A stretch of 38,872 nt of DNA from a virus: positions 1-38,872 of IMG/VR virus record IMGVR_UViG_3300032282_002757; one strand, given 5' to 3'. Positions 1,467 to 9,459 of the stretch are shown here, piece after piece. Made by a program: the position numbers and the translations under genes. The first letter of the stretch is position 1; every line of letters starts with the position of its first letter. Below the pieces are notes generated by a model, which was not told the DNA's origin, did not search any database, and saw only the letters and a program-made list of their open reading frames with translations.

Positions 1467-2582
1467 ATGGCTAGTCGTCCTGCATTAATTGCTAAGAAAC
1501 CGAAGAAACCTATGAGTATTTCTCGTACTGCATCTTCTATTTTCGATATGAAACATGTAGGACCAGAGCCTGTTTTCGATTCGCCGCTTACTTCTTCAGA
1601 TTGCGGACGAGCGTTCAACTGGTATAATTATATGTGCAATGCCAGTGACGCTCGCGAGTATACAGAAATTTGGCTCAAGCAACAAGGTCGGACTGCTGAA
1701 CTGAAGCTGTTTAAATCTGTTCCTGACGTTTGGGTCTCGACGACTTGTGGTTGGATATCTCGTTTGCGTAACAAGGGATATGAGATCCCAAAGGTAACTT
1801 CTAATTTCTTCGAAGGTGCGTTTGCTGAATCTTTAAAAAAGTCCAAAGCAGCAGAGGTTTCGGATGCTCCTAAAGTCTCGATTCAGCAAAAAATGCGCGA
1901 GAAGACGAGTGAGATTATCGGCGAGATAGAAGAGTTGATTGACAGTGGTGAACCTTTCAATATGTATGATTGGTTGAAGACTCGTAATATTCCTGCTACC
2001 TATGCACCAGCCATTGCTTCTTTTTATGCACCTTGGTTGAGTGAATTGATCGAGGCTCATGAAGGTAAATGTCCTCAGCTGAAGGAAGCTTACCGTCGTA
2101 TGTCTAAAAAGCAGCTTACGGAGCGTATCAAATTTTTCAACACAATAATTACTGATGCTGAAAAGTACGCTGGTGTTGCTAAGAAAACTCGAGCTCCAAG
2201 TAAACCGCGAGTAGTTTCGGTAGAAAAGAAGCTGAAGGATCTTAAGTTCCAAAAAGAAGATAGCACATTCAAGATTGCTTCTATCAACCCTGAAAAGATC
2301 ATTGGTGCTCAAGAGCTTTGGACCTTTAATACCAAATATAAGATCCTCACCGTCTTCAGGGCTCTCGATCGTGGAGGACTTGGTGTCAAGGGAACAAGCA
2401 TAGTTGGTTATGACGAAAAAACTTCTTGCTCGAAACGCACTGGACGCAAACCAGAGTACTTTGTTGAACGAGTTTTGAATGGCGGTAAAATCGTTCTTCG
2501 TAAACTTATGGAAGAAACTTCTGGTGATGCTACGTTTGCGCATAGGATTAATGACTCAACTATTCTTTTAAAAGTGGGTTGA
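1467..2582 (+). CDS. Conserved T4-type phage protein of unknown function
   Basis: The gene encodes 371 residues and starts 3 bases after the previous stop, with no strong Shine-Dalgarno motif, so translational coupling is likely. Basic stretches occur near the N-terminus (KKPKKP) and around residues 230-255 (KKTRAPSKPR and KKLKDLK). The segment FNWYNYMCNASDAREY and the C-terminal part ending VLNGGKIVLRKLMEE resemble a hypothetical protein I associate with other T4-type phages. I cannot name a function. No signal peptide or membrane segment is seen. It is the last gene before the tmRNA/tRNA block. Confidence 0.6.
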   Translation: MASRPALIAKKPKKPMSISRTASSIFDMKHVGPEPVFDSPLTSSDCGRAFNWYNYMCNASDAREYTEIWLKQQGRTAELKLFKSVPDVWVSTTCGWISRLRNKGYEIPKVTSNFFEGAFAESLKKSKAAEVSDAPKVSIQQKMREKTSEIIGEIEELIDSGEPFNMYDWLKTRNIPATYAPAIASFYAPWLSELIEAHEGKCPQLKEAYRRMSKKQLTERIKFFNTIITDAEKYAGVAKKTRAPSKPRVVSVEKKLKDLKFQKEDSTFKIASINPEKIIGAQELWTFNTKYKILTVFRALDRGGLGVKGTSIVGYDEKTSCSKRTGRKPEYFVERVLNGGKIVLRKLMEETSGDATFAHRINDSTILLKVG

Positions 2583-2604
2583 CTTTAATTCGTCAATAAG
2601 GTAT

Positions 2605-2612
2605 TATAAATA
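2605..2612 (+). promoter_or_regulatory. T4-type late promoter box TATAAATA
   Basis: This is an exact match to the T4 late -10 consensus, 23 bases after the stop of the preceding gene. T4 late transcription starts a few bases downstream of this box, which places the start near 2617-2619, at the expected 5' end of the tmRNA acceptor segment. In T4 the element is recognised by RNA polymerase carrying gp55, with gp33 and the sliding clamp as co-activators. Confidence 0.75.
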
Positions 2613-2617
2613 TATTA

Positions 2618-2900
2618 CTTGGTTGTTGAGGCGTAAAGAATAAACAATTCGGACGGGAGTGCGAATCTCCCCGCCTCCACCACAAGCACATTGGGGATCC
2701 TTGCTTTTATAGCATCGATTTTTACTCCATATAGTGAGTGTAACAGTGTGCTTTTGTTGGGGGCGAAATAGGTTCGACGGGTTGTAGTAAAGGTACGAAG
2801 AGACTAAGTAAACTCGTAAATGCAAACGATAATAATGCATATGAAATGGCTCTAGCAGCCTAATCGGAGTTCGGGGAGCACTTGGCAACAGAAGCTCCCC
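2618..2900 (+). ncRNA. ssrA: Circularly permuted (two-piece) tmRNA
   Basis: The acceptor piece comes first. It has a T-stem GGGAG/CTCCC (2655-2659, 2667-2671), a 7-base loop TGCGAAT, then CGCCTCC-A-CCA ending at 2682. The coding piece starts at 2759 with GGGGGCG, which pairs with 2672-2678 and includes a G-U third pair, the alanine identity element. It is followed by the hallmark GGTTCGACGGG. GGGTTGT (2779-2785) pairs with ACAATTC (2644-2650) as helix P2. TACGA/TCGTA (2794-2798, 2814-2818) may belong to pseudoknot 1. The tag frame 2822-2863 reads ANDNNAYEMALAA-stop. A 7-bp hairpin (2873-2879 with 2894-2900) closes the coding piece. The spacer 2683-2758 pairs its own ends (AAGCACA 2684-2690 with TGTGCTT 2747-2753). 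tmRNA rescues stalled ribosomes and tags nascent peptides for proteolysis. The exact 5' and 3' ends are inferred. Confidence 0.92.
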
Positions 2901-2931
2901 ACACACATTTAACACACAAAGGAGAACTAAA

Positions 2932-3147
2932 ATGGCAAACCCATACGAAATGCGCTTCAATTACCTTCAATACGCGAAGGATTTTCTTGTAAGCGAATAT
3001 AATTCTCAGATGGATCGAATTATGCTTTCGCATAACGACGATGAGATGAAAATCAAACAAGCAAAAATCAGTCAGATTAAGTATCCTACAAGGGAAGAAA
3101 TTTTCGCTTTTGCAGAAGAAATTAAGAATTTCGCTGATCAGAAGTAA
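2932..3147 (+). CDS. Small conserved phage protein, unknown function
   Basis: The gene encodes 71 residues and starts with MANPYEMRFNYLQYAKDFL. AAAGGAG lies 8 bases upstream of the ATG, a strong ribosome binding site. The protein is predicted to be mostly helical and charged, with no membrane segment. An N-terminal NPYE-x-RF motif reminds me of a short hypothetical protein found in T4-type cyanophages and relatives, but I cannot give a function. It sits between the tmRNA and tRNA-Arg and is probably on the same late transcript. Confidence 0.75.
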   Translation: MANPYEMRFNYLQYAKDFLVSEYNSQMDRIMLSHNDDEMKIKQAKISQIKYPTREEIFAFAEEIKNFADQK

Positions 3148-3155
3148 TTAAAATT

Positions 3156-3232
3156 GGTCACTTAGCTCAGCTGGATAGAGCAACGGATTTCTACTCCGTG
3201 GGTCGAGGGTTCGAATCCTTCAGTGATCGCCA
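3156..3232 (+). tRNA. tRNA-Arg(UCU)
   Basis: A full cloverleaf is visible. The acceptor is GGTCACT/AGTGATC (3156-3162, 3222-3228). The D stem is GCTC/GAGC, with a GG in the loop. The anticodon stem is ACGGA/TCCGT around loop TTTCTAC, giving anticodon TCT at 3190-3192. The T stem is GAGGG/CCTTC with loop TTCGAAT, followed by discriminator G and an encoded CCA. It reads AGA and AGG, and AGA is the dominant arginine codon of the late structural genes in this window. Confidence 0.95.
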
Positions 3233-3236
3233 TTAT

Positions 3237-3327
3237 GGGGGTGGGTGTAAGACACGAGAGAGACTTATAAACTCTTTAGCAGTAGATGACTGTTCTAGAC
3301 CAGGAGCGTTACCTGGCACCCCTACCA
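3237..3327 (+). tRNA. Aberrant class-II tRNA, Leu-like, possibly degenerate
   Basis: Only 4 bases separate it from tRNA-Arg. The acceptor is GGGGGTG/CACCCCT (3237-3243, 3317-3323) with A73 and an encoded CCA. A long variable arm folds as AGCAGT/ACTGTT (3278-3283, 3289-3294). The T stem CCAGG/CCTGG (3300-3304, 3312-3316) is perfect. The stretch TAAGACACGAG resembles the D-loop end of bacterial tRNA-Leu (GTAGACACG). Oddities: the D region has only GTGT/ACAC around a 3-base loop and no GG pair; the T loop is AGCGTTA, not TTCGANT; and the anticodon loop is CTTATAA closed by an A-A mismatch (formal anticodon UAU) or 9 bases long. It is either a decayed tRNA-Leu(UAA) or an unusual functional tRNA. 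Confidence 0.5.
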
Positions 3328-3342
3328 TTTCCAGGAGTTATT

Positions 3343-3555
3343 ATGAAGAAAGAAAAAGATTTACCTCTTGGTATGCTTTTGATAGTCATATCTCAATTTT
3401 TCTTAGCGGGTATAGATTATACTCTTAACACCAATATTAAACTTTGGTATTCTTTGCCTTTGGTGGTTTTTAGTTCTATCGTGTATTGGAGGCTATTTAC
3501 GGTGGGTTGGGCTGTAGCTTTTGAAGGGATTGAAATTGACGATACTGAGAAATAA
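3343..3555 (+). CDS. Small membrane protein with two TM segments
   Basis: The gene encodes 70 residues. The ATG at 3343 follows AGGAG at 3333-3337. Residues about 8-27 (LPLGMLLIVISQFFLAGIDY) and about 35-58 (YSLPLVVFSSIVYWRLFTVG) are hydrophobic and likely span the inner membrane. The tail EGIEIDDTEK is acidic. No family is recognised. Small phage membrane proteins of this kind may act in lysis control or superinfection exclusion, but nothing in the sequence decides this. The end overlaps the start of the next gene. Confidence 0.6.
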   Translation: MKKEKDLPLGMLLIVISQFFLAGIDYTLNTNIKLWYSLPLVVFSSIVYWRLFTVGWAVAFEGIEIDDTEK

Positions 3556-3760
3556 TAATTTTGTAGAAGAAATAGAAAAGCTCTGTAGAACTAAAAATAT
3601 AGAATACATCGATGCAGTCTTATTTTGGTGTGATAAAAATAATTTAGAAGTAGAAACAGCAGCTTATTGGATCAAAAAAGATCCAGCAATGAAAGCTAAA
3701 ATTCAAGCAGAAGCTGAAATTCTTAACGTGTTGAAGCGAGGGGCAAGACTTCCTATCTGA
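3536..3760 (+). CDS. 33: Late transcription co-activator, gp33-like
   Basis: The gene encodes 74 residues from a TTG at 3536, preceded by AAGGGA; other in-frame TTGs lie at 3521 and 3530, and there is no early ATG. The core IEYIDAVLFWCDKNNLEVETAAYWI followed by K-x-KIQAEAEILNVL and a C-terminal LPI fits my recollection of the short gp33 of T4-type cyanophages. Synteny supports it: T4 has 33-59-32 in this order and orientation, and gp59 and gp32 lie downstream here. In T4, gp33 bridges RNA polymerase and the sliding clamp to activate late promoters. No gp55 is seen in this window. The identification rests on synteny plus motif and is not certain. Confidence 0.6.
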   Translation: MTILRNNNFVEEIEKLCRTKNIEYIDAVLFWCDKNNLEVETAAYWIKKDPAMKAKIQAEAEILNVLKRGARLPI

Positions 3761-5619: not shown

Positions 5620-6201
5620 ATGATGACAGCTATTGATTGTTACAGAGAGTATTTGGCTCTCAAAAACCATTTTACTAAATCTTCATACGACTATTTCAAG
5701 TACAACGGTAAAGTTAATGTCAATGCTTCTTCTTTTGAAGCTCGCAAAGATAAATTGTTTTTTCAAAAATTAGCAAAACATTCTGATGTTAAAAATTTCC
5801 TAATAGCAAACCTCTCAGTAAATGAGAAAGCTTGGATCCGCGAGCTCGCGTATAGCGACGATGCAGAAAAGATTTACAAAGAATGGGTCAAGCGTCAGCA
5901 GTCTTTGACTTATGTTTTCAAACAAGAGCTGGGCAATATTGATACCAGATTTGATGAAAATTTCATTTGTAGGAACAATGAGCATCCTTATTTACTCAAA
6001 TTATATCTTGGCAAACAATTAAGTCTTGATACCTTATGTTTACTTTTAGAATTTACTGGTGCGAAAAAACATTGGGATTCTAAAATGAACTACGATTTAG
6101 TTTGGGATAAGTACCGAACTAAAGTTGAGAAATACACTCCATTCATTCAATGTGATAAAGAAAAATTGAAAAATATTTTGCTTGACTATTTTGAAGAATA
6201 G
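5620..6201 (+). CDS. 59: gp59, loader of the replicative helicase
   Basis: The gene encodes 193 residues against about 217 for T4 gp59. The N-terminal half follows T4 closely: a YREYLALKNHF region, DYFKYNGKVNVN, then RKDKLFFQKLAKH and IANLSVNEKAWI (T4: RRDKYFFQKLSEK and ISNLVANQDAWI). gp59 binds fork DNA and gp32, and loads the gp41 helicase in replication and recombination. AGGTGAT precedes two adjacent ATGs (5620, 5623); either could start. The promoter for gp32 overlaps the 3' end of this gene. Confidence 0.9.
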   Translation: MMTAIDCYREYLALKNHFTKSSYDYFKYNGKVNVNASSFEARKDKLFFQKLAKHSDVKNFLIANLSVNEKAWIRELAYSDDAEKIYKEWVKRQQSLTYVFKQELGNIDTRFDENFICRNNEHPYLLKLYLGKQLSLDTLCLLLEFTGAKKHWDSKMNYDLVWDKYRTKVEKYTPFIQCDKEKLKNILLDYFEE

Positions 6202-6210
6202 AGGTATACT
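6182..6210 (+). promoter_or_regulatory. Sigma-70-type promoter for gene 32
   Basis: TTGACT (6182-6187) and TATACT (6205-6210) are separated by exactly 17 bases, a near-consensus host housekeeping promoter. It lies in the last codons of gp59. The expected start at about 6217 coincides with the foot of a stem-loop, about 60 bases upstream of the gp32 ATG. It would allow early, host-polymerase transcription of gp32. Confidence 0.72.
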
Positions 6211-6216
6211 AAATAA

Positions 6217-6239
6217 TGTTGAGCGTATACAGCTCAATA
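6217..6239 (+). promoter_or_regulatory. 5' leader stem-loop of gene 32 mRNA
   Basis: TGTTGAGC (6217-6224) pairs with GCTCAATA (6232-6239) through 8 pairs, one of them G-U, around a 7-base loop. It would form the very 5' end of the mRNA from the adjacent promoter. In T4 a structured gene 32 leader nucleates gp32 binding for translational autoregulation; a similar role or 5' end protection is possible here but is inferred. Confidence 0.55.
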
Positions 6240-6277
6240 CGATTATACATTGTCATACAAACATACGGAGAATACAT

Positions 6278-7183
6278 ATGGACTTTTCTAAACTCAAGGC
6301 AAACTCTGGTAAGAAGTCTTTGGAGCAACTTACCGCCGAACTCACTAAGGTTTCGGGAACTCAGGAAGCTAAGAAGGGCGATGACCGTTTCTGGCAACCT
6401 ACTGTAGATAAGGCAGGCAATGGCTATGCCGTTATCCGTTTTCTTCCTGCGCCAGCTGGCGAAGATGTACCTTTTGTTCGTGTATTCGATCACGGGTTTC
6501 AAGGTCCTTCGGGTCTTTGGTATATCGAAAATTCATTGACCACTATCGGCAAGAATGATCCTGTTTCAGAATATAATTCTAAGCTTTGGAATTCTGGTGT
6601 CGAGGCCAATAAGGAAATCGCACGTAAGCAGAAGCGTCGCCTTCATTTCTTCTCAAATATCTACATCGTGACGGATTCTGGCAATCCGGAAAACGAAGGT
6701 AAGGTTTTCTTGTATAGTTACGGCAAGAAGATTTTTGATAAGCTCAATGATGCTATGAACCCTCAGTTCCCTGGCGATGAGCCAAACAACCCATTCGATC
6801 TTTGGGCTGGTGCTAATTTCAAGCTTAAGATTCGTCAGGTTGAAGGTTACCGCAATTACGATAAGTCTGAATTTGATAAGATGGGTCCGTTGTTCGACGA
6901 CGATAGCGAACTTGAGGCTATTTGGAAGAAGGAATATTCTCTACAGGAATTCCTCGCTCCCAGTAACTTTAAGAGTTACGATGAACTCAAGGATAGGCTT
7001 TCAAAGGTTCTTGATGAGAATACTCCAGCAACTAAGGTTGCTCGTGCCGAAGAGGAAGATCTTCCTTGGTCTCGTTCAGAGCCTGCCCCTAAGTTCAAGG
7101 CGGCTGATGCACCAAAACATGTAGCAGACGACGATGAAGAAGACGAATCTTTAGAGTTTTTTAAGAAACTCGCAAATAAGTAA
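6278..7183 (+). CDS. 32: gp32 single-stranded DNA-binding protein
   Basis: The gene encodes 301 residues, the same length as T4 gp32. The ATG at 6278 follows ACGGAG. Residues 43-57 (VDKAGNGYAVIRFLP), 72-84 (HGFQGPSGLWYIE) and NPENEGKVFLYSYGKKIFDK match the T4 core OB fold. The C-terminus is acidic (DDDEEDESLEFF), as needed for partner binding. gp32 coats ssDNA in replication, repair and recombination. Oddity: the T4 zinc ligands Cys77, Cys87 and Cys90 have no counterpart (the region reads NSLTTIGKNDPVSEYN), so the zinc site is absent. Arginine codons are CGT or CGC with a single AGG and no AGA, unlike the late genes. It ends at a strong terminator. Confidence 0.96.
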   Translation: MDFSKLKANSGKKSLEQLTAELTKVSGTQEAKKGDDRFWQPTVDKAGNGYAVIRFLPAPAGEDVPFVRVFDHGFQGPSGLWYIENSLTTIGKNDPVSEYNSKLWNSGVEANKEIARKQKRRLHFFSNIYIVTDSGNPENEGKVFLYSYGKKIFDKLNDAMNPQFPGDEPNNPFDLWAGANFKLKIRQVEGYRNYDKSEFDKMGPLFDDDSELEAIWKKEYSLQEFLAPSNFKSYDELKDRLSKVLDENTPATKVARAEEEDLPWSRSEPAPKFKAADAPKHVADDDEEDESLEFFKKLANK

Positions 7184-7185
7184 GG

Positions 7186-7211
7186 AAAGGGAGCTTCGGC
7201 TCCCTTTTTTT
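7186..7211. terminator. Intrinsic terminator with UUCG tetraloop
   Basis: GGGAGC-TTCG-GCTCCC (7189-7204) is followed by seven T. Upstream AAA extends the stem into the T run. It ends gp32 transcription and lies between convergent genes. The minus-strand gene's stop codon is within the T run, so the stem may also slow transcription from the other side, although the T run favours the plus strand. Confidence 0.92.
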
Positions 7212-9459
7212 ATGCTGATAGTTGGAGACCGCTCATAGATTCTTTATACATACCACTTCTCATAAGATCGCCAAAGAAAGAGTTATCAGAAATTCTTAAA
7301 TCGCCAGGACCGTTATACTCATTACCCTTGAATGAATTTTGCCCAGATTGATTGCCAGCTGTCTGTTGGTTTTGCTGCTCATTTCTTTGTTGATTAGCTC
7401 TCATAGAAGATTGACGAGCTCTATCTTTTAAAGTTTCTTCTTCTAGTGCGTTTTCTTCTATCTCACCACCAAAAGATCTTCTTTGAGAAGGTACAGGAGT
7501 TCTTTCTTCGCCACCGCCGAATAATCCACTCAATCCGCTGATCGCAGCTCCAGCCAAATTACCTAAAGCCATGCCAGCACCAAACCCTACCCCATGATGA
7601 CCCATACCACCCATACCGCCGCCCAGCATACCACCAATCATTCCAAGCGGCGAAGCACCCATGCCCATTCCGCCACCCATTGGTCCTCCTAATCCTAGTG
7701 GGCTACCCATGCCCATTCCGCCACCCATTGGTCCTCCTAATCCTAGTGGGCTACCCATGCCCATCATAGGTTCGCCCATCATCCTACCGCCCCTGGAAGC
7801 TACATTACCTTCTTGACCACCTTCATTACCGTGAGATCCTTTTGGTTCTATGTGCCAAGCTTCGTGGGCCATTCTAAAATTTAAACCAAATTTGCTAGCA
7901 TTTTGATGCGCCCATTCTTTTGCCTTATCGGAACTAAAGGATAAGTCAGCAGCCAAACCTTTATTGTGATTTGATCTACCAGGAGGGGCGACCCATTTTC
8001 TAGCAGCTTTTTCGCTGCCGTATTTTCGTACAGCTGCTTCATATAATTCTGCTTGTCTTTCTGGGGTTCTGTAACCAGAATTAATTCTGATAGGATTGCC
8101 TGCTTGTTGAGCAGCTTGTAAAAAAGAGCTCAATTTAGAAGCAAAATCAGGTTTCATACCTTCTATATTAGAAGGACCTTTATTATTGAATTTAGTTAAT
8201 GCAGAAATATCACCACCAGAAACTCTTTGGTTTTGTTGATCTGGTTGTCTAGCTTCTGGTGTAATACCTTGACCCGTAGAAGCTCCAGCGTTCGCACTCG
8301 TGGCGCCTGGTTGTCTAGCTTCTGGTGTAATACCTTGACCCGTAGAAGCTCCAGCGTTCGCACTCGTGGCGCCTGGTTGAGTGGCTCCTGCTTTAACTTG
8401 TGTAAAGTCCGAATTAACACCCCTTTGGTAGACGTGCTCTTTATATACTGGTTTACCAGCACCAGATTCAACTTCAGATTTAGCCATCAATATTTTCATT
8501 CTAACGCTAGGATCTGAGAGATTCAATTTAGTAGTACCAGTGGTGCCTTCTCCCAAATATCTTTGTAGAACAGATGAATATGTCGGATTTGGTTTTCCAT
8601 TTGTCCATTTTGCGACTATAGCGTCAGGTGTATCTATACCTTTTTGACCGTAATTTTCTAAATTTTTACTAGCAGCAGCAACACCGTGAACAGGGGTGGC
8701 ATACTGAGCATAAAACCCACCTTCATTTGCTGGTCTTGGAGTAGCACCAACATACCCTGGCATATTTTCAACAAATGGGTTTTTACCAGGTGCGCTTAAA
8801 CTCATTGCGCCCATGTTGTTCAGTCTTATAGAAGCAGGTAAATGTCTACCTTCATATCTTTTCAAAACATCAGGATCTAAATCTTCATTATTAGTTCTGG
8901 GATCTTGGAATTTGCTAGGGTCTAATGCAGGTCCTCCGCCAGGAGAAGCGCTGCCTGGATCCCTTGTTGATCTAGAAGTTAAATCGCTTTTGTACGCCCC
9001 GTAACCAGCAGCCGCAGTTCCCACTGCACCTAAACCAGCACCTATCCAACGTGCAGCTGGTATTTTCGATATACCGCCCATGATAGCGCTGGATATAGTA
9101 TCAACGATACCACCGCCTTCTTTTTTATCGTCTTTTTTGTCTTTTTCTTCTAAAGATCTTTTGATATCTTTCAAAGAGTTAAGCATACCAGATTGAATAG
9201 TTATAGATTGCTGTAGTAAATTGTTTGTAGCATCTATTTTAGAAGAAGTTTGTTGCATTTGTGAAGATTGTGAATCTATGCTACTAGAAATAGAGCTAAA
9301 ATTCATTCTATTTGATGCGAATATATTACCTATGTCTTTTATGACTTTAGCTATACTACCATTGTGTTGATTAGCTGCTGTTTTAAAAGAGTTTGCAACA
9401 TTGCCTAAATTGGAAACGTGTTTCGCAATTTGTGATAATGATTGATCTTGAGCAGCCAT
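7210..9459 (-). CDS. Probable tape measure / tail hub protein with M15 peptidase domain
   Basis: The gene encodes 749 residues. Residues 1-115 are helical and coiled-coil-like, 118-155 are hydrophobic and Gly/Ala-rich, and 200-305 resemble a muramidase-associated structural module (LNNMGAMSL, then AKWTNG and VLQRYLGEG). Residues 435-540 are a VanY/M15 peptidase: INSGYRTPERQAELY at 459-473, SNHNKGLAADLS (H498, D505) and HEAWHIE (E533, H536). Then follows a Gly/Met-rich low-complexity region. M15 enzymes cut peptidoglycan cross-links. The gene lies directly downstream of a gp26 chaperone ORF with a frameshift extension, the position tape measure genes usually occupy, and tape measures often carry cell-wall hydrolase domains. 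A hub-associated tail lysozyme substitute is the alternative. The peptidase domain is much surer than the tape-measure role. Confidence 0.7.
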   Translation of the reverse strand: MAAQDQSLSQIAKHVSNLGNVANSFKTAANQHNGSIAKVIKDIGNIFASNRMNFSSISSSIDSQSSQMQQTSSKIDATNNLLQQSITIQSGMLNSLKDIKRSLEEKDKKDDKKEGGGIVDTISSAIMGGISKIPAARWIGAGLGAVGTAAAGYGAYKSDLTSRSTRDPGSASPGGGPALDPSKFQDPRTNNEDLDPDVLKRYEGRHLPASIRLNNMGAMSLSAPGKNPFVENMPGYVGATPRPANEGGFYAQYATPVHGVAAASKNLENYGQKGIDTPDAIVAKWTNGKPNPTYSSVLQRYLGEGTTGTTKLNLSDPSVRMKILMAKSEVESGAGKPVYKEHVYQRGVNSDFTQVKAGATQPGATSANAGASTGQGITPEARQPGATSANAGASTGQGITPEARQPDQQNQRVSGGDISALTKFNNKGPSNIEGMKPDFASKLSSFLQAAQQAGNPIRINSGYRTPERQAELYEAAVRKYGSEKAARKWVAPPGRSNHNKGLAADLSFSSDKAKEWAHQNASKFGLNFRMAHEAWHIEPKGSHGNEGGQEGNVASRGGRMMGEPMMGMGSPLGLGGPMGGGMGMGSPLGLGGPMGGGMGMGASPLGMIGGMLGGGMGGMGHHGVGFGAGMALGNLAGAAISGLSGLFGGGEERTPVPSQRRSFGGEIEENALEEETLKDRARQSSMRANQQRNEQQNQQTAGNQSGQNSFKGNEYNGPGDLRISDNSFFGDLMRSGMYKESMSGLQLSA
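7658..7770 (-). repeat. 48-bp tandem repeat (Gly/Met-rich)
   Basis: Two identical-looking 48-bp units (7658-7705, 7706-7753) and the start of a third encode repeats of a 16-residue unit, GMGSPLGLGGPMGGGM. They lie in the low-complexity C-terminal part of the M15-containing protein. The high DNA identity suggests recent slippage or duplication. Confidence 0.85.
8241..8372 (-). repeat. 66-bp perfect tandem duplication
   Basis: Two 66-bp copies (8241-8306, 8307-8372) read the same base for base. They encode the 22-residue linker GATSANAGASTGQGITPEAR plus QP, twice, between the structural module and the peptidase domain. Lack of divergence points to a recent, in-frame duplication that lengthens the linker. 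Confidence 0.9.

Follow-up and report, generated by a model that had tools for sequence, protein, structure and literature searches.

A circularly permuted tmRNA of alphaproteobacterial type in a T4-type phage, with a putatively exchangeable segment between its two pieces

Is a ribosome-rescue RNA that a T4-type phage encodes in two pieces a working gene, and what fills the space between the pieces? The question is raised by a locus on the plus strand of a 38,872-bp linear virus record, a metagenome fragment, which we analysed over its whole length and call the window. A first-pass annotation had placed a circularly permuted tmRNA at 2618-2900 and had assigned its carrier to the T4-type phages. 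The assignment holds, as the window encodes a gp33-like late-transcription coactivator (3521-3760, plus strand; phrog_254, E 8e-15), the gp59 helicase loader (5620-6201, plus strand; phrog_269, E 1e-56), the gp32 single-strand DNA-binding protein (6182-7183, plus strand; phrog_224, E 1e-114), and tail tube, DNA end protector, head closure and baseplate wedge genes. Ahead of the tmRNA comes a 371-aa gene, and upstream of this gene we noted an HNH_3 endonuclease gene (206-913) and, after it, a 185-aa ORF (906-1463) that looks GIY-YIG-like by eye and has no Pfam match. On the minus strand, 7210-9459 encodes a large structural protein with a VanY-type D,D-carboxypeptidase domain at residues 435-530 and a Gly/Met-rich C-terminal region.

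The check that had been proposed, with Infernal, the Rfam models and ARAGORN, gave a clear result. The RF04321 (tmRNA_permuted) model matches the window with 112.5 bits (gathering threshold 47, E 2e-21) over positions 1-213 of 213, and the RF01849 (alpha_tmRNA) model with 107.5 bits (gathering threshold 50) over positions 1-355 of 355, aligned to 2580-2903. ARAGORN calls a permuted tmRNA with the tag ANDNNAYEMALAA. The alpha model is the top scorer within its Rfam clan. The locus is a complete circularly permuted tmRNA of the alphaproteobacterial type in a T4-type phage. The gene spans 2618-2903 on the plus strand; the start given earlier stands as an approximate estimate, and the end is moved from 2900 to about 2903.

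All the parts expected of the permuted order are present, as had been claimed. Piece 1, the acceptor piece (2618-2682, plus strand; ARAGORN, RF04321 and RF01849, with an estimated 5′ end), holds the 5′ half of helix P2, the T-arm with its stem GGGAG/CTCCC (2655-2659/2667-2671), the acceptor 3′ strand CGCCTCC (2672-2678) with A73 next to it, and an encoded CCA (2680-2682) that forms its end. The intervening segment (IVS) follows at 2683-2758 on the same strand. Piece 2, the coding piece (2759-2903, plus strand, from the RF01849 alignment), begins with the acceptor 5′ strand GGGGGCG (2759-2765) and contains GGTTCGACGGG, a D-like region, the 3′ half of P2, the tag reading frame ANDNNAYEMALAA (2822-2863, plus strand, from GCA to the TAA stop; ARAGORN), which ends in a degradation signal, and a 3′ hairpin (2873-2879/2894-2900).

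The two acceptor strands pair across the IVS at seven of seven positions and include the G3-U70 pair, the identity element for alanyl-tRNA synthetase, so this part of the first-pass annotation is borne out along with the CCA end. Helix P2 also forms across both pieces as had been suggested, with seven consecutive pairs (ACAATTC/GGGTTGT) whose assignment in the window rests on the Rfam alignment. The T-loop, TGCGAAT, has a G at the position where the usual T-loop has a U; the T-loops of relatives are TGCGATT or GGCAGTA, and the G appears to be normal for this group. The spacer had been described as pairing with itself, and its predicted fold agrees (-22.8 kcal/mol, z -3.2), with a closing helix at 2684-2693/2744-2753; folded together with the acceptor arm the value reaches -46.4 (z -5.4). 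The IVS of the window is thus a hairpin of 76 nt, and it is non-coding.

A near-identity search of the window locus in phage records gave no match, and relatives were gathered through gp59 and gp32. Most of the loci are metagenome contigs, and the boundaries that our script assigned are wrong in a few of them. We considered 48 distinct loci in which the sequence extends for 4.5 kb or more upstream of gp59/gp32; a permuted tmRNA is present in 46 of them, 39 of these found by ARAGORN and 7 more by Infernal. Reading the nine ARAGORN-negative relatives as losses was mostly wrong, since Infernal finds the tmRNA in seven of them. In the 39 ARAGORN-positive loci gp33 always lies between the tmRNA and gp59/gp32, and the same 371-aa gene precedes the tmRNA in 37.

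The sequence of the RNA varies in the manner expected of a constrained structure. At least nine acceptor-stem haplotypes occur among 52 unique relatives, and complete seven-pair acceptor pairing with G3-U70 was scored in 51 of the 52; the lone exception, L109, is a boundary misplaced by the script, and its sequence reads CACCTCC-ACCA opposite GGGGGTG. Of 33 tags, 32 end in AA. The innermost P2 pair covaries (100% against 44% in the control), and in a simple ungapped count the outer P2 positions do not rise above the control. These comparisons strongly support the view that the tmRNA is conserved and under selection, and with it the earlier claim that the phages retain a rescue RNA. A search for SmpB in 18 related virus records found none (the control search recovered it in 10 of 14 known genomes), therefore host SmpB is presumably used. 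The alpha type of the RNA points to an alphaproteobacterial donor. The earlier suggestion that it tells us about the host stands to this extent only: as a pointer to the present host it is weak, because trees of such short RNAs carry little weight and because phage Melnitz, which also has an alpha-type tmRNA, infects a methylotroph of another lineage.

When might this RNA be made? Piece 1 has a T4-type late promoter (NATAAATA) at its 5′ end, enriched over background and conserved across relatives; this motif is the published late promoter of cyanomyoviruses (PMC2984593). In the window it reads TATAAATA (2605-2612, plus strand) and ends about 70 nt before the CCA end, which would put the transcription start at the 5′ end of piece 1 or close to it. 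Among the matches listed, ATAAATA occupies the late-promoter position in 98 of 125 unique phage loci, against a background of 1.4% per 60 nt, and is absent from the equivalent position in all 75 bacterial loci that were collected from bacterial genomes with the same tmRNA pattern. A sigma70-like promoter, read in the sequence as TTGACT (2579-2584), a gap of 17 nt and TATTAT (2602-2607), overlaps the late promoter of the window (2579-2607, plus strand). The strict pattern TTGAC-N16..19-TANNWT is found in 17 of the 125 unique phage loci among the matches listed, compared with about 1.2% by chance. In cyanomyoviruses, overlapping early and late promoters are thought to yield middle expression (PMC2984593). 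The authors of the Melnitz paper inferred an early promoter and early expression for the tmRNA of that phage (PMC9004378), whereas the group of the window has a conserved late promoter. The promoter sequences favour late, or early plus late, expression of the tmRNA.

The tmRNA shares its RNA cassette with a tRNA-Arg(TCT) (3156-3232, plus strand; ARAGORN and Rfam), which adjoins the tmRNA in most relatives. This is followed by a tRNA-like element with the anticodon UAU (3237-3327, plus strand), recognised by aligning it with 21 relatives in which ARAGORN reports a tRNA-Ile(tat). Its variable arm is long (type II) and its D-arm very short, and it also occurs in L007, L011, L012, L034, L127 and other relatives. 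The window's own copy is diverged, with unusual D- and T-loops, and receives no ARAGORN call. The element resembles the nematode nev-tRNA-Ile(UAU), for which leucine charging in vitro has been reported (PMC4300185). AUA is the commonest isoleucine codon of the window genes (29 per 1000). We rejected a recoding of AUA to leucine by the long-armed tRNA, as AUA aligns with isoleucine at 65%, compared with 61-63% for AUU and AUC.

We now turn to the IVS, where most of the evidence is drawn from relatives of the window. Among the matches listed, a helix of at least 8 bp joins the ends of the IVS in 103 of 127 unique phage loci, compared with about 14% in a control that mixes the 5′ and 3′ ends of different loci. 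The pairs of this closing helix covary, with 3-6 pair types per position, and a near-invariant UGAU stands after the helix and before G1 in 101 of the 127 loci (again among the matches listed). The idea that the helix is a phage speciality was rejected, since many bacterial IVS also have one.

What this helix encloses seems to be exchangeable. At least 39 pairs of loci share an IVS and differ in the tmRNA body, and at least 31 share the body and differ in the IVS, these pairs not being independent of each other. The window illustrates both situations: its body is 92% identical to those of L024 and L011, whose IVS differ, and its IVS is 93% identical to that of L012, where the bodies are only 80% identical. 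In the pairs L128/L142, L016/L018 and L056/L057 the exchanged block takes in the T-arm and both acceptor strands. The T-arm and acceptor strands are contiguous in the permuted gene, therefore one exchange would keep the stem matched. These patterns indicate that phages exchange the IVS as a cassette, framed by a closing helix that covaries.

The cassette of the window was found in only one other place among viral genomes, the L012 contig. A second cassette occurs in six viral contigs, L390 and L391 among them, and in at least four of the six (L224 and L225, together with L388 and L389, which are the L097 and L040 contigs) it lies in a tmRNA IVS. In the four contigs inspected there is as yet no sign of cassettes outside a tmRNA. 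In 19 loci, Rfam gave no identity for the IVS cassettes; its matches there were to tmRNA, tRNA and a manA motif outside the IVS. In one viral contig (L239, 5624-5830) the manA RNA motif directly follows the permuted tmRNA.

Relatives use this space for genes: small ORFs, which fall into families, fit between CCA and G1. Often the CCA is directly followed by AGGAG and the ORF stops at or near the conserved UGAU. Family A comprises small membrane proteins (MKNPLVKK...MFKAYILWSICADITLLAGIIYLVFF). Its pN/pS is 0.25 in the coding frame, and the other two frames give 1.8 and 1.4. For families B, D, D2 and E the ratio is 0.27-0.45, and the signal of family C is weaker (0.68). These ratios indicate that the IVS genes of relatives are under purifying selection. 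A search with family A found 278 viral loci in related marine phages. Among the best 80 of the 278, our rule places the gene inside a permuted tmRNA IVS in 68, and 8 more have the right-hand tmRNA flank, giving at least 76 of 80. Some family A loci contain a tandem pair of genes (L414, L442). In the other four of the best 80 (L459, L460, L461 and L462) the gene lies immediately upstream of the tmRNA instead of in the IVS, a placement that suggests movement into or out of the slot. The family A and B proteins have no significant match in annotated phage records, Pfam or PHROGs. As tmRNA callers mask the region, such small proteins are hidden in standard annotation.

Two lineages have an HNH endonuclease gene inside an IVS of about 500 nt (L103, 4085-4602, and L048, 3900-4412, plus copies). 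The Pfam HNH scores of these genes are just below the curated cut-off, and similar genes are free-standing in other phage contigs. In L103 a second TATAAATA lies within the IVS, ahead of the HNH gene. The 76-nt IVS of the window has no ORF and no endonuclease gene. The exchange of T-arm and acceptor strands looks like co-conversion, and general recombination would give the same picture.

How else could these observations be read? Permuted alpha-type tmRNA is a normal chromosomal gene of alphaproteobacteria, and the window could in principle be a fragment of a cellular chromosome or a prophage remnant with the host's own tmRNA. This is scarcely credible given the T4-type phage genes on both sides of the tmRNA, the same gene order in dozens of viral contigs and in phage Melnitz, and a phage late promoter that was seen in none of the compared bacterial loci (among the matches listed). 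The gene might also be an inert relic of host origin that is falling into decay. Broken RNA genes from hosts are common in phages, and the neighbouring UAU element of the window looks diverged. Yet the acceptor stem has changed in a compensatory way while G3-U70, the CCA, the tag frame and the promoter have stayed, and a relic would hardly be kept in 46 of 48 related loci; we regard it as very unlikely. A decoy that mainly occupies or inhibits the host tmRNA/SmpB system, with no role in rescue, has been reported for the tag-less form of phage DS6A, a precedent cited in PMC11915505. The lack of SmpB in the 18 related virus records means that the phage RNA would compete with host tmRNA for host SmpB, which suits a decoy. 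Unlike the DS6A form, the window and its relatives keep the tag frame, and nearly all have it open with a degradation-type end (...ALAA) that a decoy does not need, which makes this explanation unlikely.

The swapped cassettes and nested genes call for a different kind of caution. Nearly all of the loci are metagenome contigs, and conserved tmRNA flanks could mislead assemblers into joining different phages at the tmRNA. Against such artefacts, cultured Melnitz (four isolates, identical) has a long IVS whose ORF is related to that of L172, the same combination of IVS and body recurs in several independent contigs (for example L018, L019, L020, L062 and L072), the nested ORFs show purifying selection in one frame only, and a single nested family, A, is found at 278 loci. 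Misassembly as the source of the pattern is very improbable indeed.

The RNA of the window is, then, a real and probably functional split ribosome-rescue RNA. The fuller reading that we prefer is that of a functional, vertically kept permuted phage ssrA, mainly late-transcribed and host-processed, with an exchangeable IVS slot, and on the sequence evidence we hold this to be very likely. Anatomy, conservation, promoter, cassette exchange and coding selection on nested genes are read from the sequences; around these we infer the time of expression, processing, charging, SmpB use and the mode of exchange, by recombination or homing, as follows. Transcription would occur mainly late in infection from the T4-type late promoter, starting at the 5′ end of piece 1, with an overlapping sigma70 promoter contributing in some phages, the window included. 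In the predicted precursor fold the acceptor stem stacks on the IVS-closing helix. Host enzymes would then remove the IVS, RNase P cutting at G1 and 3′ processing ending at the CCA, and the mature pieces would be held together by the acceptor stem and P2. Charged with alanine by virtue of G3-U70, the RNA could act with host SmpB in ribosome rescue and tag nascent chains (...ALAA). Recombination in the conserved tmRNA flanks may move cassettes from phage to phage, perhaps aided in some lineages by an HNH endonuclease.

Since the IVS is thrown away and the two pieces need not be rejoined, the site should tolerate, without splicing, any sequence whose ends are compatible. Such a tolerant, splice-free site may therefore have become an exchangeable slot for structured RNA, small genes and HNH endonuclease genes. 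We consider it likely, if less firmly, that the IVS is a splice-free, intron-like cargo slot that accepts, expresses and exchanges small genes and RNAs, with block exchange and with a non-coding cassette in the window. It would amount to a new kind of niche in genomes, where the discarded portion of a split non-coding RNA houses genes and no splicing is involved. Nearly all members of a large phage group keep a rescue RNA under a late promoter, which also leads us to propose that phages provide a rescue system of their own at the time when late mRNA is plentiful.

Some database records gain an explanation or an annotation from this work. The permuted tmRNAs of the cultured Rhodobacter phage RcXuper (L500), Caulobacter phage RB23 (L501), Ruegeria phage V10 (L502) and Caulobacter phage CcrRogue (L503), likewise cultured, score above the Rfam threshold and are unannotated; in V10 a GOLLD RNA lies just upstream. 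Besides T4-type phage genes (helicase loader; clamp loader and sliding clamp), two records titled Euryarchaeota archaeon (PBDU01000009.1, L296) and Muricauda sp. (NHBR02000136.1, L345) contain a permuted tmRNA with an IVS ORF; both have the appearance of phage contigs that were misbinned. Such contigs may account for some reports of tmRNA in archaeal genomes.

How does the locus compare with known systems? The presence of a permuted tmRNA in a T4-type phage is not new, as 53 of 133 unique phage tmRNA genes were found to be two-piece, with T4-like Melnitz among their carriers (PMC9004378). The ssrA of Melnitz EXVC044M (MZ577097; PMC9004378) is, like that of the window, a permuted alpha-type tmRNA with TATAAATA upstream, located just before the gp33-like coactivator and gp59 in the same synteny (gp33-gp59-gp32). 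Its IVS is 142 nt long and has an ORF, whereas that of the window is 76 nt and non-coding. A glutamine riboswitch has been claimed for the Melnitz tmRNA (PMC9004378); in the window Rfam gave nothing near threshold for it in 2400-3400.

Permuted ssrA genes on alphaproteobacterial chromosomes were reportedly described by Keiler in 2000 and by Sharkady and Williams in 2004. The window shares with this chromosomal form (RF01849) the order of parts, the acceptor pairing, G3-U70, a tag of the form ANDN...LAA and a hairpin IVS. The bacterial IVS are mostly 21-47 nt in the sampled loci and have no NATAAATA promoter, whereas phage IVS are longer, with a median of about 80 nt, exchangeable and sometimes coding. 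A 2025 update of the tmRNA database reports one permuted tmRNA with a tRNA-Ala in the IVS and one with a repeat element (PMC11915505). In the part of the literature that was covered, we found no report of protein genes in the IVS, of their families or of IVS exchange between phages. The nearest parallel is with homing introns, including the group I intron form of tmRNA: in both cases an RNA gene holds an insert that is discarded, can harbour a gene for an endonuclease and can pass from one phage to a related one. Rfam found no self-splicing RNA in 19 loci, and the IVS differs from these introns in that there is no splicing or re-ligation, the permuted tmRNA being used in two pieces. What goes beyond the known kind is the combination of an apparently exchangeable IVS with a late promoter.
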